A model generated the notes under the pieces. The model had not been told where the DNA came from. It saw nothing but the letters and a program-made list of their open reading frames with translations, and did no database searches. From Candidatus Rifleibacteriota bacterium (GTDB taxonomy: Bacteria; Riflebacteria; Ozemobacteria; Ozemobacterales; Ozemobacteraceae), in contig JAKJFO010000021.1 of NCBI GenBank assembly GCA_022704885.1, positions 1 through 36,560 of the forward strand: a DNA stretch of 36,560 nucleotides, read 5' to 3'. How positions within the stretch are numbered: position 1 is the first letter of the stretch; the number at the start of each line of letters is the position of its first letter. Positions 1 to 16,841 of the stretch are shown here, in pieces. The position numbers were made by a program, and so were the translations under genes.

Positions 1-74
1 AGAGCTTTATGCATTTCCTGCGTCAGATGAGAGTTGATATTCCAGACCAGCTACGCAGACCAGCGGCAAAATAA
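1..74 (+). CDS. C-terminal tail of an unidentified upstream gene (partial)
   Basis: Codons read in frame from base 3 give 23 residues (from SFMHFLRQM to RRPAAK) and end in TAA at 72-74. The stop overlaps the ATG of the next gene in a TAATG junction, the same coupling seen at 8536-8540 in this window, which argues that this short open stretch is real coding sequence and co-transcribed with the sigma-54 activator. The fragment is too short to assign to a family. Confidence 0.5.
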   Translation, partial: SFMHFLRQMRVDIPDQLRRPAAK

Positions 75-1513
75 TGAATAAGACAGATCAACTGCGTGGG
101 CTGGCGGGTGAATTTCTTGCCAGGTTTTCGCCCGATATGCTCAAGCAGGTAGATTACCTGTTTGAGCATCTCAAATCAGACACGGCCAGCAAGCTCGAAG
201 TCAATTTCGGTCTCGCCATGCCGCCTGAAATGAGACAACGGGTGCTCTACAGCATCGGCATCGAAGATGCCGCCGCCCCCCCGGTTGCCGACCGCTATGT
301 TCCTTATCTGTTGATCCTGAAAAAACTGCTCGACCAGGTTGGCGATAACCTCCAGGCCATCCGCCAGGAAGAAATCGCCGGCCTGATCTGGCAGGAAGGC
401 CGACGCATGCGGCTTTTTGAATATGAGATACAACAGCTCATCGATATTTTTCCTGCCTGGCTGGCTGGCATATCACGTAAATACGTCGTTGAGATTTCAC
501 CAGCCAGCATCTGCAAAGTCGATGCTGGCGAAAGTGAAAGCGACGATGGCAGCGAAATCGCTTTCAACGGCATTGTTGGGCAATCTGAAACCATGCGTTC
601 GATGTTCGCCTGTCTCAAAAAAATCAGCGCCAGCAATCTGTCGATCCTGATTCAGGGCGAAAGCGGTACCGGCAAAGAACTTGTTGCACATGCGATTCAT
701 TCGCTGTCAGATCGCGCCTCACACAGCTTCATTCCAGTTAACTGCGGCGCCCTGCCAGACAGCATCATCGAAAGCGAATTGTTTGGTTATGAAAAGGGTG
801 CTTTTACCGGCGCCGAGAACCAGAAAAAAGGCTATTTTGAAATCGCCGACCAGGGAACTATTTTTCTCGATGAAATCACCGAAACTTCACTGCCGACACA
901 GGTTAAGCTGCTGCGCGTACTGCAGGAAAAGCAGTTCTACCGGGTTGGCGGCACGAAACCAGTCTCAGCGAACTGCCGCATCATAGCTGCTACCAATCGT
1001 GACATTCTCGAAATGGCCAAAGACGGAAGCTTTCGTCACGATCTCTATTACCGCGTAAATGAAATGACTATCGCCCTGCCTCCGCTGCGCGAACGCAAAG
1101 AAGACCTGCAGCTTCTGGTGAAACATTTCCTGAAAAAATTTGCCGAGCAGAATAATTGCCCGACACCGGAAGTTACAAAAGAGTCATGGCAGTTGATCAA
1201 AAACTACAGCTGGCCCGGCAACATTCGCGAACTCGAGAACGCTCTCAAACGAGCGGTAGTTCTGGCTGACGAACAGATACTGCCCGAACACTTCCCGCCA
1301 GTCATGCTCGACCAGGCCGGCAGAAATGCGACATTACAGGCCGCCACCGGCGAGGGAACCTATGAATCGCTTATGGAGTCGGCTGAACGAGAAATACTGA
1401 TCGGCCAGCTGAAAAAGCACGGCAACAACGTGTCAAAAACCGCCGACGCGCTCGCGATATCACGCCGCACTCTGCAACGCCGCCTTAAACATCTCGGCAT
1501 CGAAAAAGACTAG
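74..1513 (+). CDS. Sigma-54-dependent transcriptional activator (bEBP) with no receiver domain
   Basis: A 479-residue activator that would open RNA polymerase-sigma-54 complexes using ATP. The AAA+ domain starts near residue 164 (FNGIVGQSETMR). It shows Walker A GESGTGKE (195-202), the sigma-54 contact loop GAFTGA (242-247), Walker B GTIFLDEI (261-268) and an arginine-finger segment FRHDLYYR. A Fis-type helix-turn-helix lies at the C-terminus (NVSKTADALAISRRTLQRR). The first ~160 residues are predicted mostly helical and are neither a receiver nor an obvious GAF/PAS domain, so the input signal is unknown. The start overlaps the upstream stop (TAATG), suggesting translational coupling. Its stop overlaps that of the convergent next gene through a CTAG. 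I saw no clear -24/-12 promoter in the window, so its targets may lie elsewhere. Confidence 0.93.
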   Translation: MNKTDQLRGLAGEFLARFSPDMLKQVDYLFEHLKSDTASKLEVNFGLAMPPEMRQRVLYSIGIEDAAAPPVADRYVPYLLILKKLLDQVGDNLQAIRQEEIAGLIWQEGRRMRLFEYEIQQLIDIFPAWLAGISRKYVVEISPASICKVDAGESESDDGSEIAFNGIVGQSETMRSMFACLKKISASNLSILIQGESGTGKELVAHAIHSLSDRASHSFIPVNCGALPDSIIESELFGYEKGAFTGAENQKKGYFEIADQGTIFLDEITETSLPTQVKLLRVLQEKQFYRVGGTKPVSANCRIIAATNRDILEMAKDGSFRHDLYYRVNEMTIALPPLRERKEDLQLLVKHFLKKFAEQNNCPTPEVTKESWQLIKNYSWPGNIRELENALKRAVVLADEQILPEHFPPVMLDQAGRNATLQAATGEGTYESLMESAEREILIGQLKKHGNNVSKTADALAISRRTLQRRLKHLGIEKD

Positions 1514-4811: not shown

Positions 4812-5882
4812 ATGAGCAGAAACCAGATTCTTGTCATTACTGATGATCGCAAGGCCCTGCAAGAGCGGATGTCAACAGCAGCTCTCGGAAAATGCCGGAT
4901 TACCGGCATCGAATCTTTGCGTTATATCGGCTTCGCGGACCTGAGTGCTGTCGTCATCGATTCAAAAAGCATAGACAAAACGCTGCGAAAAGTCAGCCTT
5001 GGCATTCGCGACGATGACGCCTCGGATGCTCTCTGGCAACTGCTGGCACAGCCAAAAAGCGCACGCGTTTTTTTTCTCGTCGATAAAATGACGAGACCGG
5101 GCAGCGACATGCTCGCCCTCGGTATCGACTACCTGCTCTACGAGAACCTTGAGCAACTGATCGCAGACACTTATACAAGTTCTCCCAGCCATGCCTTCGA
5201 CCAGGATACCAGCAGTCAGACCCGGCTGATTACCGCTGATGACATCCGTCATCTTCATAAGCAGAATATAAGGAAAATTCCGGCCGGCAGCCGTCTTACC
5301 GCATGGGCCGCTGAAGTTGCCGAGTCACTGAATTTCAGTGAGACTGGAGTCGCTTTGCAGCTTATCTGGCCGGTTGCAGCAACGTCTGCAACTGTTCTAA
5401 AAAAGGCACACGAAGAGCTTTTCGACCTCAACGCAAAATACCCCGATCTTCTGTTCATGGTAAATCCAGCCTATCTGCCGATATTTAACGATCTATATCC
5501 GTCACTCAAGGGCAAAACCGTTTCTCCGGTCATTCACTGGGCCAGCCATGGTGCCTACACCGGCGAAACCTCGGCCGCCATGCTTGCTGACCTTCGCTGT
5601 GCCGGAGCGGTAGTGCCGGCCCGCATGCCATATACCGAGCCCAAACATATCGCAAACCTGCTTGAACAGGCAAATAAACATGGGCTGACTCTTTTTTCGA
5701 CTTTTACACTTGCGTCTTCGGGCGTCTGTGATATAATTGCCCCTGAAAGTTCGCAACGGGCAACACTGACTCCACTGTACAGCGCTGACATGATTGGTGC
5801 AGGCGAACTGCCAGACGGCCCGGCAGCAATTGTGCTGAATAGCGAACTGTTAAAGCGAATCCCTTCAAGGAAAGGATACTGA
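4812..5882 (+). CDS. BMC-associated fusion: flavoprotein-like N-half and triosephosphate-isomerase-like C-half
   Basis: A 356-residue protein, first gene of the BMC operon; its function is not established. Residues 1-120 look like an alpha/beta flavoprotein-type domain known from other BMC loci (LGIRDDDAS, then a hydrophobic strand). A linker at 139-175 (LITADDIRHL, KIPAGSRLTAWAAEVAESL) resembles the conserved BMC-protein linker. Residues ~180-356 look like a TIM barrel. GAYTGETSAAMLADL (247-261) closely matches the TPI signature around its loop 3, but the expected catalytic GHSERR that follows is replaced by PARMPYTEP, and no clear N-terminal NxK lysine is seen. The barrel is also short. It is thus probably not an active TPI, and could be a sugar-phosphate-binding or new enzyme. 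The ATG lacks a clear ribosome-binding site. pduL follows after 6 nt. Confidence 0.65.
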   Translation: MSRNQILVITDDRKALQERMSTAALGKCRITGIESLRYIGFADLSAVVIDSKSIDKTLRKVSLGIRDDDASDALWQLLAQPKSARVFFLVDKMTRPGSDMLALGIDYLLYENLEQLIADTYTSSPSHAFDQDTSSQTRLITADDIRHLHKQNIRKIPAGSRLTAWAAEVAESLNFSETGVALQLIWPVAATSATVLKKAHEELFDLNAKYPDLLFMVNPAYLPIFNDLYPSLKGKTVSPVIHWASHGAYTGETSAAMLADLRCAGAVVPARMPYTEPKHIANLLEQANKHGLTLFSTFTLASSGVCDIIAPESSQRATLTPLYSADMIGAGELPDGPAAIVLNSELLKRIPSRKGY

Positions 5883-5888
5883 ACCGGA

Positions 5889-6431
5889 ATGATGGACGAA
5901 AAACAGGTAAAGACCATTGTCGCAGAAGTCCTCAAACACATTGACCTGCACGGCAGAATCAAATCGGGCTCGATTCCCTGTGGAGTCAGCAACCGCCATC
6001 TGCATGTATCGCAGGCCGATCTCGAAACCCTTTTTGGCAAAGGCTATCAGCTCAAACAGATGAAGCCTCTGTCACAGCCCGGTCAGTACGCCGCCGAAGA
6101 AACCGTTCTGCTGGTCGGCCCCAAAGGCTCGATCGAAAAGTGCCGCATTCTCGGCCCGGTCCGCCCCGCGACTCAGGTCGAAGTATCTACTACAGACTGC
6201 TTCAAACTCGTCGCTGCCCGCCACATGCATATAAGTGCCGTAGAAGCAGATAAATTCGGTCTCAAAGACATGGACAGGATTTCTATCAAGTCTACCGGCG
6301 TCAAGTCGGTCATTTTCAACAACGTTCTGGTTCGCGTCAGCGACAAGTTCGCTCTCGATTTCCATCTCGATACGGATGAAGCCAACGCCGCCGGCATCAA
6401 GAACGGCGACATGGTCGAAATAGTAGCATAA
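5889..6431 (+). CDS. pduL: PduL-type phosphate acyltransferase
   Basis: A 180-residue BMC phosphotransacylase that swaps CoA for phosphate on acyl-CoA, recycling CoA in the lumen and giving acyl-phosphate for ATP. Two PduL beta-barrel halves are visible: PCGVSNRHLHVS near residues 30-41 and AARHMHIS in the second half, whose histidines are the family's zinc ligands, then LDFHLDTDEANAAG near the end. The first ~18 residues (DEKQVKTIVAEVLKHI) form an amphipathic helix like an encapsulation peptide, matching that of the aldehyde dehydrogenase below. ATG 5889 or 5892 (MMDEK) may be used. It sits 6 nt after the fusion gene, in one operon. Confidence 0.93.
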   Translation: MMDEKQVKTIVAEVLKHIDLHGRIKSGSIPCGVSNRHLHVSQADLETLFGKGYQLKQMKPLSQPGQYAAEETVLLVGPKGSIEKCRILGPVRPATQVEVSTTDCFKLVAARHMHISAVEADKFGLKDMDRISIKSTGVKSVIFNNVLVRVSDKFALDFHLDTDEANAAGIKNGDMVEIVA

Positions 6432-6467: not shown

Positions 6468-6761
6468 ATGCAGGAAGCCCTGGGTATGATTGAAACACGT
6501 GGATTAACATCTCTCATCGATGCCAGCGATGCTATGGTCAAAGCCGCCAACGTTAAACTGGTCGGCTGGGAAAAAATCGGTTCTGGTTATTGCACCGCTT
6601 TCGTAAGAGGCGATGTAGCCGCAGTTAAAGCCGCCACCGACGCCGGTGCCGCTGCTGCCAAGAAGCTTGGTGAGCTGATTGCCGTTCACGTAATTCCTCG
6701 CCCCCATTCTAACCTTGACGAAATTTTCCCGATCCGCGAAGTAACTGGCTCCAAAAAGTAA
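6468..6761 (+). CDS. BMC-H shell protein (PduA/CcmK-like hexamer)
   Basis: A 97-residue single-BMC-domain protein that tiles the shell facets as hexamers. It shows the standard fold pattern: [23 protein letters not shown], the pore loop KIGSGYC, then [15 protein letters not shown] and VIPRPHSNL. The small polar GSG pore is like that of PduA and suits passage of small polar metabolites. It is preceded by an excellent AGGAGG (6457-6462), the strongest ribosome-binding site in the operon, as expected for the most abundant shell part. It is the only BMC-H gene in the window. Confidence 0.97.
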
Positions 6762-6819: not shown

Positions 6820-7101
6820 ATGATACTTGGCCGCGTATGTGGTACGGTTGTCTGTACCCGCAAAGATGAAAGCCTTGTCGGTCTCAAGCTGCTTGTGGTC
6901 GAGGAATTAACCCTCGATGGCGCGAAGCCGACCGGAAATCACGTCGTTGCCGCTGACGCGGTTGGAGCCGGCGCCTCAGAGAAAGTTCTGGTCGTTGCCG
7001 GCAGCTCGGCACGTCTGACCGAGCGCACGCTCAAAAAACCAGTCGATGCCGCAGTATGTGCGATAGTCGATCAGGTGGTCTTCGATTCAGAACGTTCCTG
7101 A
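6820..7101 (+). CDS. BMC-P shell vertex protein (EutN/CcmL family)
   Basis: A 93-residue pentamer-forming protein that caps the vertices of the BMC. The family start is clear (MILGRVCGTVVCTRKDESL), followed by LKLLVVEEL, the AADAVGAGASEKVLVVAGSS core and the C-terminal DAAVCAIVDQV strand. Length is normal. It is the single BMC-P gene here. The gene follows BMC-H after 58 nt that contain a hairpin, and its ribosome-binding site (CAGGA, 8 nt from ATG) is weaker than that of BMC-H, which fits the low number of pentamers needed. Confidence 0.96.
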   Translation: MILGRVCGTVVCTRKDESLVGLKLLVVEELTLDGAKPTGNHVVAADAVGAGASEKVLVVAGSSARLTERTLKKPVDAAVCAIVDQVVFDSERS

Positions 7102-7137: not shown

Positions 7138-8538
7138 ATGAGCGTTTCAAGGGAAGATTTGCAACTCATAGTGTCGGAAGTGCTCAAAAAAATCGGCACA
7201 GGCACGCTCCCGACGCCATCTGTCGCCAGTGGCAGAGGCAGAGGAATTTTTGACTCGGTTGATGACGCGGTAGCTGCTGCTGCCCACGCCCAGAAACAGC
7301 TGATAGACCTGCCGCTGAAGGCCCGGGCAGCCATTATTGCCAATATGCGTAAGCGCGCCCTCGAAAAGGTCGAAGAGCTGGCAAAATTTGCCAATCAGGA
7401 AACCGGCTACGGCAGGGTCGATGACAAGATTCAAAAAAACAAGCTCGTCATCGAAAAAACGCCGGGAGTCGAAGACCTTGTTCCCGAGGCCTGCAGCGGC
7501 GATCACGGCCTGACCCTGACCGAGCGTGCTCCTTATGGCGTCATCGGGGCTATCACTCCGTCTACGAACCCGACGGCAACTGTCATAAACAATTCGATCA
7601 GCATGGTTTCGGCCGGCAATTCGGTTGTCTTTGCGCCACATCCGGCGGCGGCAAAATGCAGTCAGTTTGCGATGAGCCTTCTCAATGACGCCATTGTCGA
7701 AGCTGGCGGCCCGGAGAATGTTCTGGTAACAGTTGCCAGCGCCAGCATCGAAAACGCCCAGAAAATCATGACTCATCCTGGAATCAGACTTCTGGCCGTT
7801 ACCGGTGGCCCGGCCGTCGTCGAAGCCGCGTCGAAATCACGCAAAAAATATGTCGCCGCCGGCCCCGGCAACCCGCCGGCCGTCGTCGATGAAACCGCCG
7901 ATCTCAAAAAAGCGGCGCGTGACATAGTTTCTGGTGCAAGCCTCGACAACAATGTGCTTTGCATTGCCGAAAAAGAAATCATCGTCGTCGAGTCGGTCGC
8001 TGACGAGCTCAAGAAGCACCTGCGCAACAGCGGCGCCTACGAAGCTTCACCTCGCGAAATAGCCCAGCTCGAAAAAGTCTGCCTCGATGCCAAGGGAATG
8101 CCCAATCGCAAGCTGGTCGGGCGCAACGCCTCGGTCATCATGCAGGAAATCGGCGTCAACATTCCACCCGAAACCCGCATTGTACTCTGCGAAACAGCTC
8201 CCGATCATCCTTTTGTTGTAGAAGAGCTGCTGATGCCCGTTATTCCACTGGTCAGAGTGCGCGACGTTCACGCCGACCTCGCGGTCAAGGTTGAGCACGG
8301 TAACCGCCACACAGCTACCATGCACAGCAAGAACATCGACAATCTGCACAAGATGGCACGCATGTGTGACTGCAGTATCTTCGTCAAGAACGGGCCCAGC
8401 TACGCCGGACTCGGTCTCGGTGGCGAAGGCACCACAACCATGACCATAGCCTCGCCAACCGGCGAAGGCATCACAACCGCGCGCTCATTCACCCGTCTGC
8501 GCCGGTGTGTAATCGTAGATTCGTTCCGGATTGTATAA
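7138..8538 (+). CDS. pduP: CoA-acylating aldehyde dehydrogenase of a BMC (PduP/EutE-like)
   Basis: A 466-residue enzyme converting an aldehyde, probably acetaldehyde, with NAD+ and CoA to acyl-CoA inside the shell. The catalytic cysteine is Cys275 in DNNVLCIAEKE. The NAD-binding segment GAITPSTNPTATVINNS and the VTGGPAVV glycine motif are present. No alternative aldehyde dehydrogenase type fits better. The N-terminus (REDLQLIVSEVLKKIG, then a glycine-rich linker) is a textbook encapsulation peptide and resembles that of PduL in the same operon. The start has GGAG 7 nt upstream. The stop overlaps the next start as TAATG (8536-8540), so the PduS-like partner is translationally coupled. Confidence 0.95.
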   Translation: MSVSREDLQLIVSEVLKKIGTGTLPTPSVASGRGRGIFDSVDDAVAAAAHAQKQLIDLPLKARAAIIANMRKRALEKVEELAKFANQETGYGRVDDKIQKNKLVIEKTPGVEDLVPEACSGDHGLTLTERAPYGVIGAITPSTNPTATVINNSISMVSAGNSVVFAPHPAAAKCSQFAMSLLNDAIVEAGGPENVLVTVASASIENAQKIMTHPGIRLLAVTGGPAVVEAASKSRKKYVAAGPGNPPAVVDETADLKKAARDIVSGASLDNNVLCIAEKEIIVVESVADELKKHLRNSGAYEASPREIAQLEKVCLDAKGMPNRKLVGRNASVIMQEIGVNIPPETRIVLCETAPDHPFVVEELLMPVIPLVRVRDVHADLAVKVEHGNRHTATMHSKNIDNLHKMARMCDCSIFVKNGPSYAGLGLGGEGTTTMTIASPTGEGITTARSFTRLRRCVIVDSFRIV

Positions 8539-9851
8539 TGGTAAATGTTGATTTTTCACAACTGGGCCTGACCGGATGCGGCGGTGCCGGGTTTCCGACA
8601 CATATCAAGCTGGCCGCCCGCAACGTCGAAGCGGTTATCGTCAATGCCGCCGAATGCGAGCCTCTGCTTCATAAAGATAAAGAGATCATGCGCCATTGCA
8701 GCGAAGATTTCTTCAAAGGCCTGATCAGAGTTCTCGATGAAACCGGCGCTAAAACCGGTTACATCGGCATGAAAAAGAAGTATGCCGACCTGCTCGCCTG
8801 GCTCTCGAAAAATCTGCCTGACCCGCGCATCAAAATGCTGCCGCTCGGCGACTTTTACCCGGCCGGCGATGAATACGAACTGGTCTACGAAGCCACCGGC
8901 CGGCTGATTCCGCATGGCGGCATACCGCTCAACATCGGTTGTGTCGTCATGAACGTCGAAACTCTGCTCAACATCGGCCGCAACAAGCCTTTCATCAGTA
9001 AGTTTCTCACTCTTGCCGGCAAAGTGCCCCACCCCTGTACCATCGAAGTGCCCATTGGCATCACTGTGCGCGAGGCTCTCGAGCTGGGCGGACTCAAAAA
9101 AATCGACGGGCTGAAAGTAATTGACGGCGGCCCGATGATGGGCAAGCTCATCGCCAGCCCTGAAACCGCAATTGTCAGCAAAACCTGTGGCGGCCTGATT
9201 GCATTGCCCGCCGACCACGTTCTGATCAGAAAGATGTCGAACAGCGACAAAAAAAATTCGCAGATCGCCCGTTCAGCCTGCGACCAGTGCACTGACTGCT
9301 CAGAACTCTGCCCACGCGCCCTGCTCGGCTATCCGATACGGCCGCACAAAGCGATGCGCACTGCGCAGTTCGCGCCCTACGCCGAAAGCAATTACGCGAT
9401 CGATTCGATATTCTGCAGCGAATGTGGCCTGTGCTCACTGTTTTCATGCCCCGAAGACCTGCCTCCCCGCGAGATGTGCATGCTTTCGAAAAAGTATCAT
9501 CTCGGCAAAGGCGTAAAACTCGCAGAATTTCCGGGTGAGCCAACAATTCACCCAATGCGTTCGGTTCGCCGCGTCAGCATCGAACGCCTGATCAAGAAGC
9601 TCGCTCTGCTCGACTACGATCACAAAGCGCCATTGCAGCAGGTTAGCAAGAATTTCGACAAGGTAACCCTGCCGCTCAAGATGCACATCGGTGCTCCTTC
9701 AGTGCCGGTTGTCAAAGCTGGCGACAGGGTTGGTGCCGGTCAACTCATCGCAGTGATACCTGAGGGCAAACTCGGTGCGGTGCTGCATGCGTCGATCAGC
9801 GGCAAAGTAGCTTCGGTCAGCGACCAGGCAATTGTCATAGTCAGAGAATGA
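8538..9851 (+). CDS. pduS: PduS-like iron-sulfur flavoprotein (RnfC-like electron carrier)
   Basis: A 437-residue electron-transfer protein related to PduS and RnfC. The N-terminal GCGGAGFPTHIK motif belongs to the flavin/NADH-binding domain. Two [4Fe-4S] motifs follow: Cys248, 251, 254, 258 (CxxCxxCxxxCP) and Cys293, 296, 299, 304 (CxxCxxCx4CP). A C-terminal barrel-sandwich domain lies at ~370-437. The open frame extends 11 codons upstream, but ATG 8538 is preferred because it overlaps the stop of the dehydrogenase (TAATG) and gives the standard start. PduS in known systems reduces cobalamin. No B12 enzyme is seen here, so it more likely reoxidises NADH in the lumen and passes electrons through the PduT-like shell protein that follows 10 nt later. 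Confidence 0.9.
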   Translation: MVNVDFSQLGLTGCGGAGFPTHIKLAARNVEAVIVNAAECEPLLHKDKEIMRHCSEDFFKGLIRVLDETGAKTGYIGMKKKYADLLAWLSKNLPDPRIKMLPLGDFYPAGDEYELVYEATGRLIPHGGIPLNIGCVVMNVETLLNIGRNKPFISKFLTLAGKVPHPCTIEVPIGITVREALELGGLKKIDGLKVIDGGPMMGKLIASPETAIVSKTCGGLIALPADHVLIRKMSNSDKKNSQIARSACDQCTDCSELCPRALLGYPIRPHKAMRTAQFAPYAESNYAIDSIFCSECGLCSLFSCPEDLPPREMCMLSKKYHLGKGVKLAEFPGEPTIHPMRSVRRVSIERLIKKLALLDYDHKAPLQQVSKNFDKVTLPLKMHIGAPSVPVVKAGDRVGAGQLIAVIPEGKLGAVLHASISGKVASVSDQAIVIVRE

Positions 9852-9861
9852 GGTAAGATAA

Positions 9862-10419
9862 ATGAATATCCACGGAAATGCCATCGGCCTGATCGAACTT
9901 TCCAGCATTTCTACCGGCTATCTGGTGACCGATGCCATGCTCAAGACCGCTTCGGTCGAGCTGGTTCTCTCGCGCACCGTCTGCCCGGGCAAATTCATCT
10001 GCCTCGTCTGGGGCGATGTCGCAGCCGTCGAAGCCAGCGTTGCCGCCGGCATTCAACTCGGTCAGGGCTATCTTGTCAACGATCTCGTCATTCCGAACCT
10101 GCATCCGCAGATTTACCCGGCAATTACTGCCACCAATCAGATTACCGAAACCGGTGCGCTTGGTGTTATTGAGACTTTTGACATAGTTTCGACGATTCTT
10201 GCTGCTGACGCTTCGGTCAAAGCGGCTGACGTAACGCTTTGTGAACTGCGCATCGCCATGGCCATCGGCGGAAAAGCCTTTTACACGATGACTGGCGACG
10301 TTGCCGCAGTCGAAGCTGCGGTCAAAGCCGGCCTAGAATCACTCGAAGGCAAGGGTCTCGTCGTTCATCATGTCGTCATTCCAAGGCCGCGGCCTGAGCT
10401 GTTCAGGGAGTTCATCTGA
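9862..10419 (+). CDS. pduT: BMC-T shell protein with two BMC domains and a pore cysteine (PduT-like)
   Basis: A 185-residue tandem-domain trimer-forming shell protein. Domain 1 (about 6-90) reads AIGLIELSSISTGYLVTDAM to VIPNLHPQI, and domain 2 (about 98-185) reads ALGVIETFDIVSTILAADA to VIPRPRPEL. Cys41, in VCPGKF, aligns with the cysteine of PduT that holds a [4Fe-4S] cluster in the central pore. This suggests electron transfer across the shell, in agreement with the PduS-like neighbour upstream. The ribosome-binding site GAGGTAA precedes the ATG. Its stop overlaps the start of the RpiB-like gene as TGATG. Confidence 0.94.
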   Translation: MNIHGNAIGLIELSSISTGYLVTDAMLKTASVELVLSRTVCPGKFICLVWGDVAAVEASVAAGIQLGQGYLVNDLVIPNLHPQIYPAITATNQITETGALGVIETFDIVSTILAADASVKAADVTLCELRIAMAIGGKAFYTMTGDVAAVEAAVKAGLESLEGKGLVVHHVVIPRPRPELFREFI

Positions 10420-10868
10420 TGCCAAGAATCTACCTCGGTGCCGATCACGGCGGTTTTCCACACAAAGAAGAACTCAAAAAGTATCTCATCGAAAAAGGGC
10501 ACGTAATCGAAGACATGGGTGCCTATTCGACTTCACCTGTTGATTACCCTGATATAGCCTATCTGGTAGCGGCTTCGGTCGCCAAAAATCCGCACAGTCT
10601 CGGCATTGTCATCGATGGCGCCGGAATCGGCTCATGCATGGCTGCCAACAAGGTTCCCGGCATTCGCGCCGCCTGCTGTAACGATCTTTATACTGCCCGC
10701 AACAGCCGTGAACACAATCACGCCAATATTTTAACTCTTGGCAGCATGGTAATCGGCACCGGCTACATGAAGCAGATCGTCGATCTCTGGCTGGCAACTG
10801 CTCCGGCCCCCGGCCGCCACGCCGACCGCGTCGCCAAGATCATGCAGCTCGAACGCCTGACCGGCTGA
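10419..10868 (+). CDS. rpiB: RpiB-like sugar-phosphate isomerase, catalytic Cys replaced by Asp
   Basis: A 149-residue member of the RpiB/LacAB family, which interconverts ribose-5-phosphate and ribulose-5-phosphate. Family motifs are clear: LGADHGGF at the start, GAGIGSCMAANKVPGIRAA, and the NDLYTARNSREHNHANILTLGS block with its histidines. The catalytic cysteine that normally begins the CGTGIG motif is Asp66 here (VIDGAGIGSC), with a nearby Cys73. Activity or substrate may therefore differ from standard RpiB. It is the last gene of the BMC operon, overlapping the BMC-T stop (TGATG), with GGGAG as the ribosome-binding site. A palindromic repeat lies 24 bp downstream. Confidence 0.93.
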   Translation: MPRIYLGADHGGFPHKEELKKYLIEKGHVIEDMGAYSTSPVDYPDIAYLVAASVAKNPHSLGIVIDGAGIGSCMAANKVPGIRAACCNDLYTARNSREHNHANILTLGSMVIGTGYMKQIVDLWLATAPAPGRHADRVAKIMQLERLTG

Positions 10869-11019: not shown

Positions 11020-12165
11020 ATGAGAGCAATATGCATAGTACTCGACAGCGCCGGCATTGCGCCGATGCCTGATCAGCACGAATACGGCGATATCGGCGCC
11101 GCAACAATCCCGAATATCGCAAAAGCCACTGGCGGCATCGACCTGCCAACCATGCAGAACATGGGACTCGGGAATATAACCGAAATCGAAGGAGTGCCAC
11201 CGGCAGACGCCCCGACGGCATCTTACGGCATGATGTACGAACTGTCGCCAGGAAAAGACACCACTACCGGCCACTGGGAAATGATGGGAATGAAGCTCGA
11301 TTTCGCGTTTCCGGTTTTTCCGGAAGGCTTTCCGAAAGACTTCATCGAAAAGTATGAAGCTGCTATCGGCCGCCAGACTCTCGCCAACTATCCGGCTTCC
11401 GGCACCGAGATCATCAACCAGCTTGGCGACGAGCATGTTAAAACCGGCAAGCCCATTGTCTATACCTCAGCTGACTCGGTGTTTCAGGTGGCCGCGCACG
11501 AGGAAGTAATTCCGGTTCCTGAACTGTATCGCATCTGCCAGATTGCCCGCGACATGCTGCAACCGCCAGAACTCGGTGCAGCCCGCGTCATTGCGCGCCC
11601 GTTTCTTGGTTCTTCCGGTAATTACACTCGCACCCCTAACCGCCACGACTTCAGTTTGACACCTTCAGAAACAGTTCTAGATGTGCTTAAAGCCAAAGGG
11701 ATTCCTACCTACGGCATCGGCAAAATCTACGATATTTTCGCCGGTCAAGGTGTTGAACCGCATGTAACGACCAAAAGCAACGAAGACGGCATGCAGAAAA
11801 CGCTCGAAGCACTCGACAAAATCAAGTCAGGCCTTATTTTTACCAATCTCGTCGATACCGACATGAAATACGGTCATCGCCGTGACGTTCATGGTTATCG
11901 TGCCTCTCTAATGGAATTCGACACCTGGCTGGCCGAATTCATCAACAAACTCGAAGATGATGACGTGCTGATCATCACTGCCGACCACGGCTGCGACCCG
12001 ACCTACAAAGGTTCCGATCATACCCGCGAAGCAGTGCCGCTGCTGGTCTACCAGAAGGGCAAAACCGGCAAAGACCTTGGTATTCGCCAGGGATTCTGGG
12101 ATGTAGCCGCTACCATCGCCGCCCATCTTGGCGTCGATTACAAAAACGGCACCTCTGCGTTGTAA
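11020..12165 (+). CDS. deoB: Phosphopentomutase
   Basis: A 381-residue metal-dependent enzyme that interconverts (deoxy)ribose-1-phosphate and the 5-phosphate in nucleoside salvage. Alkaline-phosphatase-superfamily metal residues are visible: Asp9 (VLDSAG), the phosphorylated threonine in DTTTGHWE (80-87), then VDTDMKYGHRRD and TADHGCDPTYKGSDHTRE near the C-terminus. Length is close to the family norm. It has its own promoter but lies directly downstream of the BMC operon, and its deoxyribose-5-phosphate product is the usual feed for a sugar-phosphate BMC through an aldolase not present here. Confidence 0.97.
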   Translation: MRAICIVLDSAGIAPMPDQHEYGDIGAATIPNIAKATGGIDLPTMQNMGLGNITEIEGVPPADAPTASYGMMYELSPGKDTTTGHWEMMGMKLDFAFPVFPEGFPKDFIEKYEAAIGRQTLANYPASGTEIINQLGDEHVKTGKPIVYTSADSVFQVAAHEEVIPVPELYRICQIARDMLQPPELGAARVIARPFLGSSGNYTRTPNRHDFSLTPSETVLDVLKAKGIPTYGIGKIYDIFAGQGVEPHVTTKSNEDGMQKTLEALDKIKSGLIFTNLVDTDMKYGHRRDVHGYRASLMEFDTWLAEFINKLEDDDVLIITADHGCDPTYKGSDHTREAVPLLVYQKGKTGKDLGIRQGFWDVAATIAAHLGVDYKNGTSAL

Positions 12166-12255: not shown

Positions 12256-13746
12256 CTAAGGTCTGTCTGCAAGAACGCTGATGGTATAGAGCGAAGGTGA
12301 AGTCGATTCAGGAACTGGAATGGCTTCTTCATCAGGTGTGTTGATATAGTAAGATGCAGAAGCACCCGGAACTGGATTCGGCTCGATTACGATCTGATGT
12401 GCAAAACCATAACCGGTAGCGACATGAAATTTGATCAATGCTTCGCCGGTAACGCCTGCCTGAATGGACGGGGTGATCTGTGTGTTGTCCCACAGAGTAA
12501 TGGGATTGTTATTCTTTACCTCAAAGCTGTCGTAAGGCAGAGAAATATTGGCAGTCACCCGGTCACCATTCGCCAGGTCAGGACCTGCGACATGAAACAC
12601 CACATCACGATAGATGATGTTGTCATACATGCCAGCCTTGCTGTCAGCAGCAACCGCAGGATTATAATCGAATGCCGTTGTGTTGTTGTCAAAGGTAAAA
12701 TCGACGTCGATACGGTAATTGCCTTCCGCACCGCCAAACGCAGTGAGCGAAGAGCCGATCCTGACGACTTCGTCCTGATAGCCAACCATCTGAATTCTGA
12801 GATTAACCGGGAGATTGATGGCAGCAACTTCAAAAACATTTGGCAGGGCGTCATTGGAGACAATAAGATTGCTTGTCGTCAACACATGCGCCGGAGATGT
12901 ATTCGTTTCGACCAGAACATTAGCCTGAGCGTTGTTTAGATAACTCGGAGCGTTAACCCAGCGCAGCTGCAATTTATAGGTAACCGGCGTGAGAGATATC
13001 TTCACGTAGTATTCGCTTCCGAGCAGAGTGACGCCCTCTATTGTAGATGGCATGTAGAGAGGCTGATCGGCGGCATGACGAATGGCGATATCCATCGACT
13101 GAGCTGAAGATCTCTCAACGCCAGCACGCAGATCACCGGCAGTCAATTTAGTATTGCCGAGGCTGTCCTTCAAAGGTTCGCCATTGATGGTGACATAAAA
13201 TTCTTCAAGATCCTGTACTTTCACTGCTGACTGAGCATCGAGACTATAGGTGCTGTATAAATCGATCTTGATTGTGGCGGTTGGAGGCAGGCTGGTAGCT
13301 GACTCGATGAGCGGCAGGGCACCAAGGCTAACGACATCGCCGCTTTTAACATAGATAGCTTCTAGCTTTGCAGACTCGGCCGCATCGCCTGTTTCTGTTT
13401 CAGTAGTGGTTTTAGTGCTTGGGTAAGTCGCCTTGTTCTGACCCTTCTGATACTCGATCAGAACGTTGTCGGGAATGACGTTATCGAACACGAAATAACC
13501 GTTGGCGTCGGTGACAGTGGTCAAAAAGTTTTTGCCCTGTTTGAGCTCAGAAGTTCCCTGGGCTTCTTTCGACATGACTCTTACCGTTGCCCCTGAAATA
13601 CCGACAGTGTCATTATCTGCCTTGACGATACGACCGGTGATCATCGCCGGTTTGACGCCAAGAGCGCCTTTTTCGCAACCCATGCTCAGCATAATGACCA
13701 GTCCGGCAATCGCCAGAAACCAGCCGCCCCAGAATCTCAGCTGCAT
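12256..13746 (-). CDS. GCEKG-family lipoprotein A with carboxypeptidase-regulatory-like domain
   Basis: A 496-residue predicted lipoprotein of unknown function. The signal peptide ends at a lipobox LSMGC with Cys24 as lipidation site; residue +2 is Glu, so there is no Asp inner-membrane retention signal. It then has EKGALGVKPAMITGRIVKA, the start of a beta-sandwich (carboxypeptidase-regulatory/Cna-B-like: ITGRIV, later GYFVFDNVIPDNVLIEY). The rest is beta-rich. Start: the open frame goes to 13788, but ATG 13746 has GGGAGG nine bases before it and gives a normal signal peptide; 13788 has a weaker AGGTG. It lies downstream of paralogue B in one transcript and shares its N-terminal pattern with B and C. 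Confidence 0.85.
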   Translation of the reverse strand: MQLRFWGGWFLAIAGLVIMLSMGCEKGALGVKPAMITGRIVKADNDTVGISGATVRVMSKEAQGTSELKQGKNFLTTVTDANGYFVFDNVIPDNVLIEYQKGQNKATYPSTKTTTETETGDAAESAKLEAIYVKSGDVVSLGALPLIESATSLPPTATIKIDLYSTYSLDAQSAVKVQDLEEFYVTINGEPLKDSLGNTKLTAGDLRAGVERSSAQSMDIAIRHAADQPLYMPSTIEGVTLLGSEYYVKISLTPVTYKLQLRWVNAPSYLNNAQANVLVETNTSPAHVLTTSNLIVSNDALPNVFEVAAINLPVNLRIQMVGYQDEVVRIGSSLTAFGGAEGNYRIDVDFTFDNNTTAFDYNPAVAADSKAGMYDNIIYRDVVFHVAGPDLANGDRVTANISLPYDSFEVKNNNPITLWDNTQITPSIQAGVTGEALIKFHVATGYGFAHQIVIEPNPVPGASASYYINTPDEEAIPVPESTSPSLYTISVLADRP

Positions 13747-13789
13747 AGTGCTAAACCTCCCGAACGCTTGAGAAGAATTATTATTCATA

Positions 13790-15037
13790 TCAGTTCACCT
13801 GTATTGTTACGACCTGAGCTTCAGCTCCGTCGTCGTCCACACGTTTGGTCTCGGTATTCGATTTGCCATCGCCGACGATATAGCCGACAAAATTCAACTC
13901 GTATCCGGTTGGAACCTGATTGGTGCCAAGATCGATTACACGTGGCGTGCCGATTGTCCAGCCCGGCGGGTTGGTAACTATAGTTTGAGCCCACTGAGTG
14001 CCGGTTTCCTGGCAGAATGCACCGACAAAGTCGTTGGTTCTGATGCTTTCTCCCATGATGATTATGCGAACATCACGCATGATCGGTGAGAAATTGTTTT
14101 TCAGCGAGAATGTCTGGTATATGGTTCCCTGGAAGTCGCCGGAAGGATAGACCACAATTGGTCCGTTCATACGATAACCTTTGATCTCTGCTTCAATCGA
14201 CACCGAAACGCCTCTGGGAATACCCGAAATGGTAAAGGTCTGTTCGTTGATGGTTGCGGTAGCAGTGGCGACAGCCCGGTTCCCGGCATAGGCAAAGATA
14301 TTAGCAGTAGGATTTGCCTGGAATACCCAGCCTGGCACATCCTGCCAGCGCCCAACGATCGAATAGGTCTCGGGCTGCAGCAGAATCGTTCCGATGCTGC
14401 GGTCTGAAAGAAGACCTGCATCAAATGTATAGGTGAAACGTTCGTACCCGGTCACTGTGATAATAAGCCTGATCGGTTCTGCAGACGCAGGAACTCTGAA
14501 TCCGGTTGTCAGTTCAGTAGGAAGACGATTGTTGAAAGTCTGCTGGCCGAACACGAACTGTGCATTGCCATAGGTGATGAGCGTTCCATTAACGGCATCC
14601 TTAAGAGTGCCAGAAACGGTTACATACTGGTTTTCGTAGATCTGTTGCATGCGAACCGAAGGCACATGCGAAGTATCGTTATTGGTAACAACAACATTGA
14701 CAGCTGCCGAAGCCGAATCACCCAGCGGCACGTAGCCCACCTTGTCAAAGCTTAGATTCCATTCGTCAGCGCGCATATTGCTGAAATAATAGTTTCCGTT
14801 GCTGTCGCTGGTGGTGAACTTGGTAGCACGACCATCTTCGCCCTCTTCGCCGGTAGCAGCAGTGATGCTGACTCCGGCAATTCCGACAAGAGTGCGACTG
14901 TCGAGCACGCTTCCCGAAATACCACCGCCTTTGAGCCCGAGGGTGCCTTTCTCGCACCCGGCCAGGCTTACAATCAGCACAATGAACAGTGCTGCCAGGA
15001 TCCCGAACGGCTTCGGGTTCCGCCTTTCTCTAATCAT
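13790..15037 (-). CDS. GCEKG-family lipoprotein B
   Basis: A 415-residue predicted lipoprotein, paralogue of A and C. The signal peptide has a hydrophobic core (ILAALFIVLIVSLAGC) with Cys28 as lipidation site. The mature protein opens EKGTLGLKGGGISGSVLDS, then a Cna-B-like repeat (SDSNGNYYFSNMRADEWNLSF) and further beta-rich sequence. GGAGG sits 7 nt before the ATG, so the start is secure. The stop lies 43 bp before the preferred start of A, so the two are probably co-transcribed. The cargo or ligand is unknown; surface or outer-membrane display is inferred. Confidence 0.87.
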   Translation of the reverse strand: MIRERRNPKPFGILAALFIVLIVSLAGCEKGTLGLKGGGISGSVLDSRTLVGIAGVSITAATGEEGEDGRATKFTTSDSNGNYYFSNMRADEWNLSFDKVGYVPLGDSASAAVNVVVTNNDTSHVPSVRMQQIYENQYVTVSGTLKDAVNGTLITYGNAQFVFGQQTFNNRLPTELTTGFRVPASAEPIRLIITVTGYERFTYTFDAGLLSDRSIGTILLQPETYSIVGRWQDVPGWVFQANPTANIFAYAGNRAVATATATINEQTFTISGIPRGVSVSIEAEIKGYRMNGPIVVYPSGDFQGTIYQTFSLKNNFSPIMRDVRIIIMGESIRTNDFVGAFCQETGTQWAQTIVTNPPGWTIGTPRVIDLGTNQVPTGYELNFVGYIVGDGKSNTETKRVDDDGAEAQVVTIQVN

Positions 15038-15503
15038 GTTAACGCCTCCAGCAGAAATCTTAAAAGAGTCGGCTTCACTACTTAATCGGCTAAGGCTGAC
15101 GAAAACTTAACCAAAAAAAATCTTTCACAGGTTTCAGAACAAACAGAAAACATCAGCAGATTACTCAGATTTCACAGATTGAGCAGACAAGGCCGTATAA
15201 AGAACGGCCGAACCGGCTGTAGTTTTCTGACAATATGGAGCCACCAATCGCATCATGGTGAGCCTCTGAAACCTCAGCCTTAAACAGGAAACCAGACCTC
15301 AGGTTACTCTCAAACTGCGGCTATCTGCGAAATCTGCGGATATTCTCATTCTTCTTCTCTTCTTTGTGCCTCCGTGCCTTAGTGCGGCCTTTCTTCAATT
15401 TTCCGGCATTCGCAAAAAAAAAGATGAAAAAACTCTTCAATTTGTCAGCAAGACAGCCGATAAGGTTTCAGAGATATTTTCGAGATTTTTCATGGAGGCA
15501 ACC
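15038..15503. other. Divergent intergenic region between lipoproteins B and C
   Basis: A 466-bp stretch with no gene. It holds an inverted pair, AGATTTCACAGAT at 15167-15179 and ATCTGCGAAATCT at 15323-15335 (12 of 13 complementary), then a pyrimidine-rich run (15340-15400) and an A-rich run near 15412-15430. No clear -35/-10 pair stands out for either gene. An open frame from 15366 runs into gene C but starts far before its ribosome-binding site. Confidence 0.5.
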
Positions 15504-16841
15504 ATGGTAAGACAACAATCGACCGCAAAAGGACGTTGGCTGCTGCTGATAGTTCTTTCGCTTGCCAGTATCGTTTTTACTGGCTGCGAGAAGGGCTCGC
15601 TTGGCATCAAGAGTGGCACGATCACAGGATATGTCATTAATGCCAACAACAACCAGCCCATACCGGATGTTCTGGTGCGAGGCACCAGCGACACGCACGA
15701 GAACAAGAGCACCTATACCGGTGGCGATGGCAGCTTCGTCATGGCCGACCTGACCAAAGGAGCCTGGAGTCTCTATGTAGAGAAATATGGGCACGCTCTG
15801 GTGCATCCGGACGCAACCGGCAGTCAGACCGCCAATGTCATTGCTGCTACAGTCAATGTAGCTAACGGCGAAACGGTAAGTGCGCAGGTCATCAAGATGA
15901 CCAAAACACCGGAACTGGTAAAGGGCGTGCTCAAAGGCTACCCGATCGATTCGATCACCGGACGACCGTTAACCAATTTCACGGTAACTCAGACCTACCC
16001 ATATACTCAGCGCAAGTCAAAACTGTTCGAGACCGCAGCTGATTTCAGGGATATTGGCTGGAGCGGCCTGGAAGGTGGCGACCATCATTACACCATTAAC
16101 GCCAACAATTATGTTGAATACAATACTGCCGGAGCCGGCGGAGAAAACGCCGATGCTGCATATATATCCATCGGAGCTTCAGCGGTGAATCTCGGTACGA
16201 TCAAAGTGACGCCTCTTACCGTAAGTATTGCCGGCACACTGCGCAATCTGCCGGGTTACGTGCTCGAAACCCAGAACAGGGATCTGGTAATCTGGGCGGA
16301 AGCAGCCGGCAAAGTGGTCGCGACCTTTACCGATACAAATGTCGAAGGCGCTTACAAAGGCTCGATAACCTACAAGCTCAATGATATTCCGGTAACCGCC
16401 GGAAGTGTCTCAGTAAAATGCAAGCTCAGAGGCTACGACCTGCAAACAATCAACCAGGCTGTCAGTCTTGCCAGCAATATGCCGGGTGGCACAATTGCCG
16501 GAGTCGACATTGACTTCGCCAATGTCGAGCCGATCCGCCGCGATCTTCGCGTAGTGGTAATCAGCACTGAGCCAAAAGATGGAACGCCGGCATCCTTCAA
16601 GCCCGGACAGACGGCGCGCGTATTCCTGCGCCAGGGTGGCAAAGACATCGTGCCTTACATCGACGTGGTCAGCGTAAATTATCGCGCCGAAGCATACTTC
16701 TCAGGCGTAGTAACAGGTTACGAACTCAATATTTACGCCGTTAACATGAGTGAAGGTTACTACCAGGTTCTGTCTGATCCCTTCAAGGTTCAGGAAGACG
16801 GCAATTCGGCCTTCACTTACAACGTGCAGCTGAAACCCTAG
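15504..16841 (+). CDS. GCEKG-family lipoprotein C
   Basis: A 445-residue predicted lipoprotein, third member of the local family. The signal peptide ends ASIVFTGC with Cys28 as lipid site, followed by EKGSLGIKSGTITGYVINA and a Cna-B-like repeat (YTGGDGSFVMADLTKGAWSLYV). The frame is open from 15366, but ATG 15504 has GGAGG six bases upstream, inside the codons of the alternative start, and gives a normal signal peptide. It is transcribed away from A and B, and is followed by a strong terminator. Function unknown; probably a surface protein. Confidence 0.88.
   Translation: MVRQQSTAKGRWLLLIVLSLASIVFTGCEKGSLGIKSGTITGYVINANNNQPIPDVLVRGTSDTHENKSTYTGGDGSFVMADLTKGAWSLYVEKYGHALVHPDATGSQTANVIAATVNVANGETVSAQVIKMTKTPELVKGVLKGYPIDSITGRPLTNFTVTQTYPYTQRKSKLFETAADFRDIGWSGLEGGDHHYTINANNYVEYNTAGAGGENADAAYISIGASAVNLGTIKVTPLTVSIAGTLRNLPGYVLETQNRDLVIWAEAAGKVVATFTDTNVEGAYKGSITYKLNDIPVTAGSVSVKCKLRGYDLQTINQAVSLASNMPGGTIAGVDIDFANVEPIRRDLRVVVISTEPKDGTPASFKPGQTARVFLRQGGKDIVPYIDVVSVNYRAEAYFSGVVTGYELNIYAVNMSEGYYQVLSDPFKVQEDGNSAFTYNVQLKP

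Follow-up and report, generated by a model that had tools for sequence, protein, structure and literature searches.

According to the accessible part of a study on Salmonella, EutQ is essential for joining the shell and the cargo of the microcompartment (BMC), and from deletions its authors assign contact with the shell to the H1/H2 region (residues 9-41) and contact with the encapsulation peptides of the cargo to H3/H4 (PMC12487888). For SPU BMCs, the available text of PMC8217296 names RpiB (pfam02502) as one of the two enzymes that they have in common. One Atribacteria SPU locus has been reported, in a source available in part, with a triosephosphate isomerase (TPI) sharing 44% identity with a known TPI. 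The subunits of TPI exchange loop 3, which touches loop 1 of the neighbouring subunit (PMC5138414).

Here we describe a protein with the working name TPIx, encoded by a real open reading frame (356 aa) that is the first gene of a BMC operon in the window, as we call the whole 36,560-nucleotide stretch of DNA analysed (Table 1). TPIx is a doubly degenerate fusion, nevertheless under purifying selection, that carries a module resembling EutQ H1/H2, and the BMC-H of its operon is of the EutM type. Its reading frame and translation were confirmed as given in a preliminary description of the sequence; the module segment, from which the likely role of TPIx stems, was absent from that description. 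With moderate confidence, we propose that TPIx has no catalytic role and serves as an adaptor anchored to the shell of a split SPU-type (deoxyribose-phosphate) microcompartment; it would probably act inside the organelle as an adaptor and not as its enzyme. A literature search, with subscription journals and preprints outside its scope, gave no account of the TPIx protein.

The TPIx operon and its distribution

The first homologue search yielded 48 proteins with E <= 0.001 among 6,638 candidates, and an organism was named for seven of them, six from Riflebacteria/Rifleibacteriota and one from Erysipelotrichia; the window itself appears to come from Candidatus Riflebacteria. A scan of genome contigs gave 12 TPIx loci; some were labelled otherwise, e.g. 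Erysipelotrichia (L003) and Methylomirabilis (L005), both of these genomes nevertheless lying inside the same phylum set. At a threshold of E <= 1e-50, TPIx was present in 17 of 39 genomes searched from the Candidatus Riflebacteria phylum. Matches below this threshold (1.2e-7 in strength or weaker) lay in other frames, mostly of 250-310 residues with one of 619, and those whose sequences were inspected were canonical TPIs. No TPIx matches were found in 72,556 plasmid records.

The next recognised gene after TPIx was pduL in all 17 genomes, and shell genes followed in 16; in the remaining genome the 3.4 kb contig runs out past pduL. Thus the placement of the fusion in BMC loci, as first described, holds wherever the context is visible; the remaining proteins of the first homologue search come without gene context. 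As shell genes were found in 34 of the 39 phylum genomes, many BMC-bearing members are without TPIx, these absences being soft because the completeness of the genomes is not given, and perhaps in some cases due to contig ends. In G021, for instance, an operon of this type breaks off at the aldehyde dehydrogenase. The dN/dS of TPIx was 0.15 between the window and its closest relative (L001), 0.13 to L002 and 0.11 between L002 and L006, in comparison to 0.02 for the aldehyde dehydrogenase; these ratios indicate that TPIx is under purifying selection, though freer than the aldehyde dehydrogenase. In one genome (L012:9896-10768) TPIx has only 291 residues and ends near barrel helix 4, by either a frameshift or a natural truncation.

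The pduL gene of the window lacks 102 bp (34 aa, in frame) compared with L001, with the junction near 6207, and in 12 of 12 related loci the pduL match was 639-642 bp, i.e. the longer form. This shortening is a real deletion or an assembly error, and the product is probably impaired. A gene for a sigma-54-dependent regulator lies upstream of uvrB with one gene in between (window 74-1513), is placed likewise in L001-L006, L119 and L120, and is a candidate regulator of the BMC operon. Downstream of deoB, three carboxypeptidase-regulatory-like-domain proteins are encoded (window 12256-16841), which were at least partly found downstream in L001-L007 too.

Table 1. Features of the TPIx operon in the window, in gene order (TPIx, pduL, BMC-H, BMC-P, acylating aldehyde dehydrogenase, pduS, BMC-T, rpiB, deoB).
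Feature	Position	Strand	Remarks
TPIx (flavoprotein-like domain, EutQ-type module, degenerate TPI barrel)	4812..5882	+	dN/dS 0.15 vs L001
Degenerate BMC flavoprotein-like alpha/beta domain, residues 1-122	4812..5177	+	SxN[ST] lost
Module homologous to EutQ 3-45 (H1/H2), residues 139-176	5226..5339	+	HMM, alignment
Shortened TPI (TIM) barrel without catalytic motifs, residues 177-353	5340..5870	+	
TPI loop 3 (dimerisation loop), retained, with the beginning of helix 3, residues 247-263	5550..5600	+	GAYTGETSAAMLADLRC
pduL-type phosphate acyltransferase	5889..6431	+	34 aa short vs orthologues
BMC-H shell protein, EutM type	6468..6761	+	149.9 bits vs cut-off 133 (NCBIfam)
BMC-P vertex protein (EutN/CcmL)	6820..7101	+	
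Acylating aldehyde dehydrogenase (EutE/PduP type)	7138..8538	+	
PduS/RnfC-like electron-transfer protein	8505..9851	+	
BMC-T shell protein, two BMC domains, PduT-like	9862..10419	+	under cut-off of PduT model
RpiB-type sugar-phosphate isomerase	10419..10868	+	pfam02502
DeoB phosphopentomutase	11020..12165	+	

The EutQ-type module

The HMM of the TPIx module matched E. coli K-12 EutQ over residues 3-45 with 26.4 bits (E 2.5e-9 in a search of 13 proteins from that region) and, weakly, EutT (8.6 bits); as a control, the best of 2,600 shuffled copies reached 5.7 bits. In the reverse search with EutQ 1-60 against the 5,891 ORFs of the fetched loci, a set in which some genes were included more than once, TPIx genes took the top ranks, with E 0.0012 for the best TPIx, 0.11 for the window copy and 0.21 for the first non-TPIx ORF. 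Single-sequence matches between TPIx and EutQ were weak or modest, and a word search with the module region gave six hits among 50 candidates, all of them TPIx proteins. Conservation in residues 139-176 is among the highest in TPIx: T141, T163, W165, A166, A170 and L173 are invariant (39/39), and one amino-acid change in the 38 residues separates the window from L001. By these profile matches the module is homologous to the H1/H2 shell-binding region of EutQ, and binding to the shell is predicted.

The Pfam model for EutQ (PF06249) covers residues 85-232 only, and a match that begins at residue 85 would explain why the module was left without annotation. The cupin acetate-kinase domain PF06249 had no match in TPIx, which is therefore not a EutQ. 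No counterpart of EutQ H3/H4 (62-99) was noticed in TPIx by eye, the profile query having been EutQ 1-60 only.

The degenerate TPI barrel

A degenerate TPI barrel had been proposed for the C-terminal half, and both HMM and fold evidence bear this out. TPIx scored above the gathering score of Pfam PF00121, hhalign of the C-terminal domain against TPIs gave P 96 and E 4.9e-9, and the fold search for residues 179-353, proposed earlier as a refuting test, returned TPI and so did not refute the TIM barrel; a chance motif match is thereby rejected as the origin of the TPI likeness. The barrel is ~70 residues shorter than triosephosphate isomerase. UDP-GlcNAc epimerase rows in the Foldseek output were dismissed (TM 0.13-0.15), and the model of the full-length structure had a pTM of 0.48.

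The active-site motifs were lost in the whole family. NWKM, GHSERR, of which the loss from the window copy had been pointed out earlier, and YEPVWAIGTG were each found in 0 of 39 TPIx proteins, and so were the phosphate-site loops (loop 6 GTG; loop 7 YGGS, YGGSV). We take NWKM and GHSERR to be loops 1 and 4 of TPI. As the catalytic motifs are missing, TPIx was not filed as a TPI. NWKM, GHSERR, YEPVWAIGTG, YGGSV and the loop-3 motif GA[FY]TGE were all present in each of 12 canonical TPIs from TPIx genomes; the loop-8 pattern was uninformative, matching 0 of these 12. Since hhalign aligned loop 3 well but not the later known motifs, we located the catalytic positions by motif and by counting onwards from loop 3 without gaps, and an H was found at the catalytic-histidine position in 1/39 and a K near the lysine position in 2/39.

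Loop 3 (GA[FY]TGE) was retained in all 39 members. In the loop-3 segment (residues 247-263), 133 of 204 positions were identical to the TPI of the same genome, as compared to 20/144 and 18/168 in the flanks, and its mean information of 3.14 bits was the highest of the 12 segments compared. From the window to L001 there is one change in the 43 residues of strand3-loop3-strand4 and 15 in the 180 of the whole barrel. Judged by these alignments, this region and the module are the best kept parts of TPIx.

Other barrel residues are newly conserved, C306 and D307 (37/39 each) and Y274 (35/39), and W243 and H242 are kept at 87% and 84% by weight. Conservation of Y274, C306 and D307 could mark a new site, which would argue against an adaptor, and TPIx might then be an enzyme with an active site rebuilt from these residues and H242/W243, acting on a sugar phosphate or an aldehyde in the BMC; its dN/dS of 0.11-0.15 is also in line with this. 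We regard such an enzyme as rather improbable, given that the catalytic and phosphate-loop motifs of TPI are gone in 39/39, that some divergent members break the newly conserved residues (e.g. Y at 306 in one), that TPIx evolves faster than the aldehyde dehydrogenase (0.15 vs 0.02) and that related genomes already have an enzyme for the aldolase step.

The N-terminal domain

The flavoprotein-like nature of the N-terminal half, as first suggested, found moderate support. By sequence profile, residues 1-178 of TPIx align end to end, and in identical domain order, with flavoprotein-module proteins; however, Pfam Flavoprotein (PF02441) had no match in residues 1-177 and the SxN[ST] motif was present in 0 of 39 family members. 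PF02441 was above cut-off in 2 of 4 flavoprotein-module relatives scanned, and SxN[ST] was kept in 5/5 standalone relatives and in 11/11 domains fused to deoxyribose-phosphate aldolase (DERA). This motif is presumably the flavin-binding motif of PASANT type. Residues 1-122 thus resemble, with moderate confidence from the alignment, the BMC flavoprotein domain. The fold rows pointed to a receiver domain at the N-terminus, a reading that may still hold but was set aside since the flavoprotein-module family aligns end to end. Direct homology to the middle domain of the DERA fusions was unsupported (hhalign P 0.06 and 0.18). The last position of strand 3, D50, holds D in 32/39 and H in 7/39, and between the window and L001 there are 17 amino-acid changes in the 122 residues of the N domain.

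The Foldseek list for the N domain included, at rank 21 with E 0.026, a UbiX-like decarboxylase structure, which we assume to be a flavin protein. Together with the PduS in the operon and the alignment of residues 1-178 to proteins of which some match Pfam Flavoprotein, this would fit a flavin-dependent BMC redox protein that partners PduS. Such a role is very unlikely for TPIx, as every member lacks the SxN[ST] that the standalone and DERA-fused domains keep.

The DERA satellite locus

Each of the 12 TPIx genomes examined had exactly one DeoC match, on a contig other than that of the main operon, and the other five TPIx genomes had one DeoC match each. DERA was preceded by two BMC-P genes in 11 of the 12, the contig ending first in the twelfth, and in L053 both of these genes matched Pfam EutN_CcmL. 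The locus (L053:6238-8357 and equivalents in L054-L064) consists of the two BMC-P genes and a DERA of ~500 aa. The start of DERA was visible in 11/12, cut by the contig end in the twelfth, and showed by eye an amphipathic, encapsulation-peptide-like helix (MESIVEQIAKEVMLKLK and variants). A flavoprotein-like middle domain was found in 11/12 DERAs, not in G007, and matched the flavoprotein-module family with P 84 and E 7.2e-6 over 44 columns. Ahead of the aldolase domain, the DERAs of L053-L064 carry CxxC pairs in a stretch rich in cysteine, where a metal or an iron-sulphur cluster might bind.

RpiB in the operon and DERA in a BMC-P satellite therefore make this BMC a split SPU-type (deoxyribose-phosphate) organelle. 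Both marks of SPU BMCs, a DeoC-type aldolase (pfam01791) and RpiB (pfam02502) together with a BMC, were found, the aldolase via related genomes; the window organism would have its own DERA as its relatives do, of which L001 is the nearest. From the pathway, DeoB would feed the deoxyribose-phosphate organelle.

The preliminary description had offered TPIx as a sugar-phosphate sensor or carrier, or as the signature enzyme of an aldolase-free BMC, roles with which its place at the operon head and the sugar-phosphate isomerase and phosphopentomutase in the operon agree. However, the aldolase is encoded elsewhere in 12/12 genomes, in 11 of them after two BMC-P genes in a satellite BMC locus, which does not favour a signature enzyme. 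The absence of the catalytic and phosphate-loop motifs, loops 6 and 7 included, in 39/39 is evidence against sensing or carrying a sugar phosphate at the TPI site. Hence we now hold this set of roles to be highly improbable.

The C-terminal KGY that the TPIx of the window has in common with DERA was dismissed as coincidence, as many TPIx end in KGN; the C-terminal tyrosine is presumably part of the active site of DERA. Lone BMC-domain genes off the main operon were seen in ten genomes as weak matches (E 2.6e-10 to 6e-5), including G001:C3:404059-404241 (L065), G002:C17 (L067), G003:C105 (L066) and G017:C202 (L135).

Other carriers of the module

A module search of the 39 genomes, with an alignment that included EutQ, recovered all 17 TPIx. 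Flavoprotein-module proteins were found in six genomes (per-genome E 4.7e-4 to ~0.7), and five were fetched (L149:5431-6159, L150:2806-3504, L151:5205-5930, L152:4852-5577 and L156:4470-5321): flavoprotein-like proteins of ~240 residues with the EutQ-like module at the C-terminus, encoded outside the main BMC operon. Three genomes with shell genes and without TPIx (G037, G038 and G039) encode a TPI with an N-terminal EutQ-like module (E 0.002-0.02; L153:2988-3956, L154:5380-6324 and L155:2-517). The two full-length module-TPIs keep every tested TPI motif, and the third is cut by a contig end. With the TPIx-only module HMM, the eight other carriers had E 0.003-0.9 (~5,900 ORFs), and each of them outscored the best shuffle (5.1 bits). 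EutQ 1-60 matched the three module-TPIs with E 0.006-0.02; among the flavoprotein-module proteins only L149 beat the best shuffle (13.3 vs 8.8 bits). A word search of the protein database with the N-terminus of the module-TPI gave six proteins, and Pfam TIM matched all of them; some may be duplicates of one organism's protein.

No BMC or eut genes were found in the 4-11 kb fetched around these eight genes, and two of the module-TPI genes adjoin genes that resemble, by eye, aminoacyl-tRNA synthetases. Next to the module-TPI, G038 and G039 also encode a canonical one. In G037 no other TPI was found, and with no BMC gene nearby its module-TPI may therefore be the general TPI of that cell. Descent of the TPIx barrel from the module-TPIs was rejected, as the TPIx barrel HMM did not match them at E 1e-3. 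Since the TPIx barrel is not especially close to theirs, two separate fusions of module and TPI seem likely. The three genomes with module-TPI are a second instance of module plus TPI and back the adaptor reading.

Two further sequences resembled the module. A 101-residue ORF (L134:17286-17588) combines an encapsulation-peptide-like helix with a EutQ-like module of weak score (E 1.5); it lies ~8 kb away from BMC genes, and its genome has no TPIx. The C-terminal extension of RpiB in L121 looked similar by eye and was rejected, as the module HMM did not match it.

Discussion

With both enzyme domains decayed and the module and loop 3 kept by selection, an adaptor is the simplest reading of TPIx. 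As an adaptor, TPIx would be kept at the inner face of the shell by its module, a function carried over from EutQ by homology, and the rest of the protein would hold something or oligomerise. A further step, for which we have less confidence and which we put forward as tentative, is that TPIx uses its retained loop 3 to dock on the housekeeping TPI, just as one TPI subunit docks on the other through this loop. The docked TPI would then sit where DERA releases glyceraldehyde 3-phosphate, and the reversible aldolase reaction would be pulled forward. Docking fits with the loss of the homodimer sockets, with the one canonical TPI that all 17 TPIx genomes also encode, with glyceraldehyde 3-phosphate being a product of DERA and with the module being found three times on a motif-intact TPI. 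In its fullest form, which is doubtful, TPIx would be a localisation prozyme, i.e. a dead TPI half-site that heterodimerises via loop 3 with the only functional TPI of the cell and moors it inside a DNA-sugar microcompartment via the EutQ-type module, other members of the phylum having fused the module to a live TPI.

Against docking, loop 3 could serve self-association or be structural. Points against the adaptor reading are the loss of the loop-1 and loop-4 motifs, the lack of any H3/H4 counterpart noticed by eye, the low pTM of the full-length model, the weak single-sequence matches to EutQ and the lack of BMC genes in the stretches fetched around the module-TPI and flavoprotein-module genes. 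The TPI homodimer is tight, so a heterodimer of TPIx and TPI must compete with it. TPIx may instead be purely structural, a shell anchor with decayed domains as filler or self-associating scaffold, without a TPI partner and with loop 3 for self-association. We see this as quite plausible, if short of even, and the weight given to it overlaps with that of the adaptor because the anchor is common to both. The homology of the module and the double decay agree with it, and by analogy so does the dimerisation of EutQ via its C-terminal domain, as given in the available portion of the source (PMC12487888). However, loop 3 of TPI touches loop 1 of the adjoining subunit (PMC5138414), and NWKM and GHSERR are lost in TPIx, so that a TPI-like homodimer would be without its sockets.

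Under the preferred adaptor reading, our results suggest that the shell-binding region of EutQ is a portable module outside ethanolamine organelles, found within one phylum on a dead TPI and, with weaker sequence support, on a live TPI and a flavoprotein. With such a module, the anchoring of cargo in SPU microcompartments, which are widespread, would become open to direct tests. If loop-3 docking is true, the organelle borrows a central metabolic enzyme without a targeting peptide on it, which would be a new loading handle for engineers. The results also indicate that the Riflebacteria organelles are not aldolase-free.

Comparison with known systems

Compared with EutQ, TPIx has a homologous module of ~40 residues and a EutM-type BMC-H in its operon, whereas it has no cupin domain, H3/H4 cargo-binding helices were not noticed and its module is internal, between two decayed domains. 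Its barrel is homologous to triosephosphate isomerase (PF00121) and keeps loop 3, but is ~70 residues shorter and lacks the catalytic and phosphate-loop motifs in 39/39. The BMC flavoprotein-module proteins align end to end with TPIx 1-178 in identical domain order, whereas TPIx is without SxN[ST] and is fused to a barrel.

As far as the accessible parts of PMC4207490 and PMC8217296 describe them, SPU BMCs resemble the Riflebacteria system in RpiB, DERA, acylating aldehyde dehydrogenase and PduL, and type I HO BMCs in a satellite locus with two BMC-P genes and an aldolase. In contrast to the SPU and HO BMCs as described there, the DERA of Riflebacteria is split off to a satellite locus and TPIx stands in the main operon. 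The trypanosomal AdoMetDC prozyme, as presented in the available sections of PMC6221367, resembles the proposed logic, a dead paralogue with a live enzyme; the pairing of TPIx, itself a proposal, would differ in that it serves localisation.
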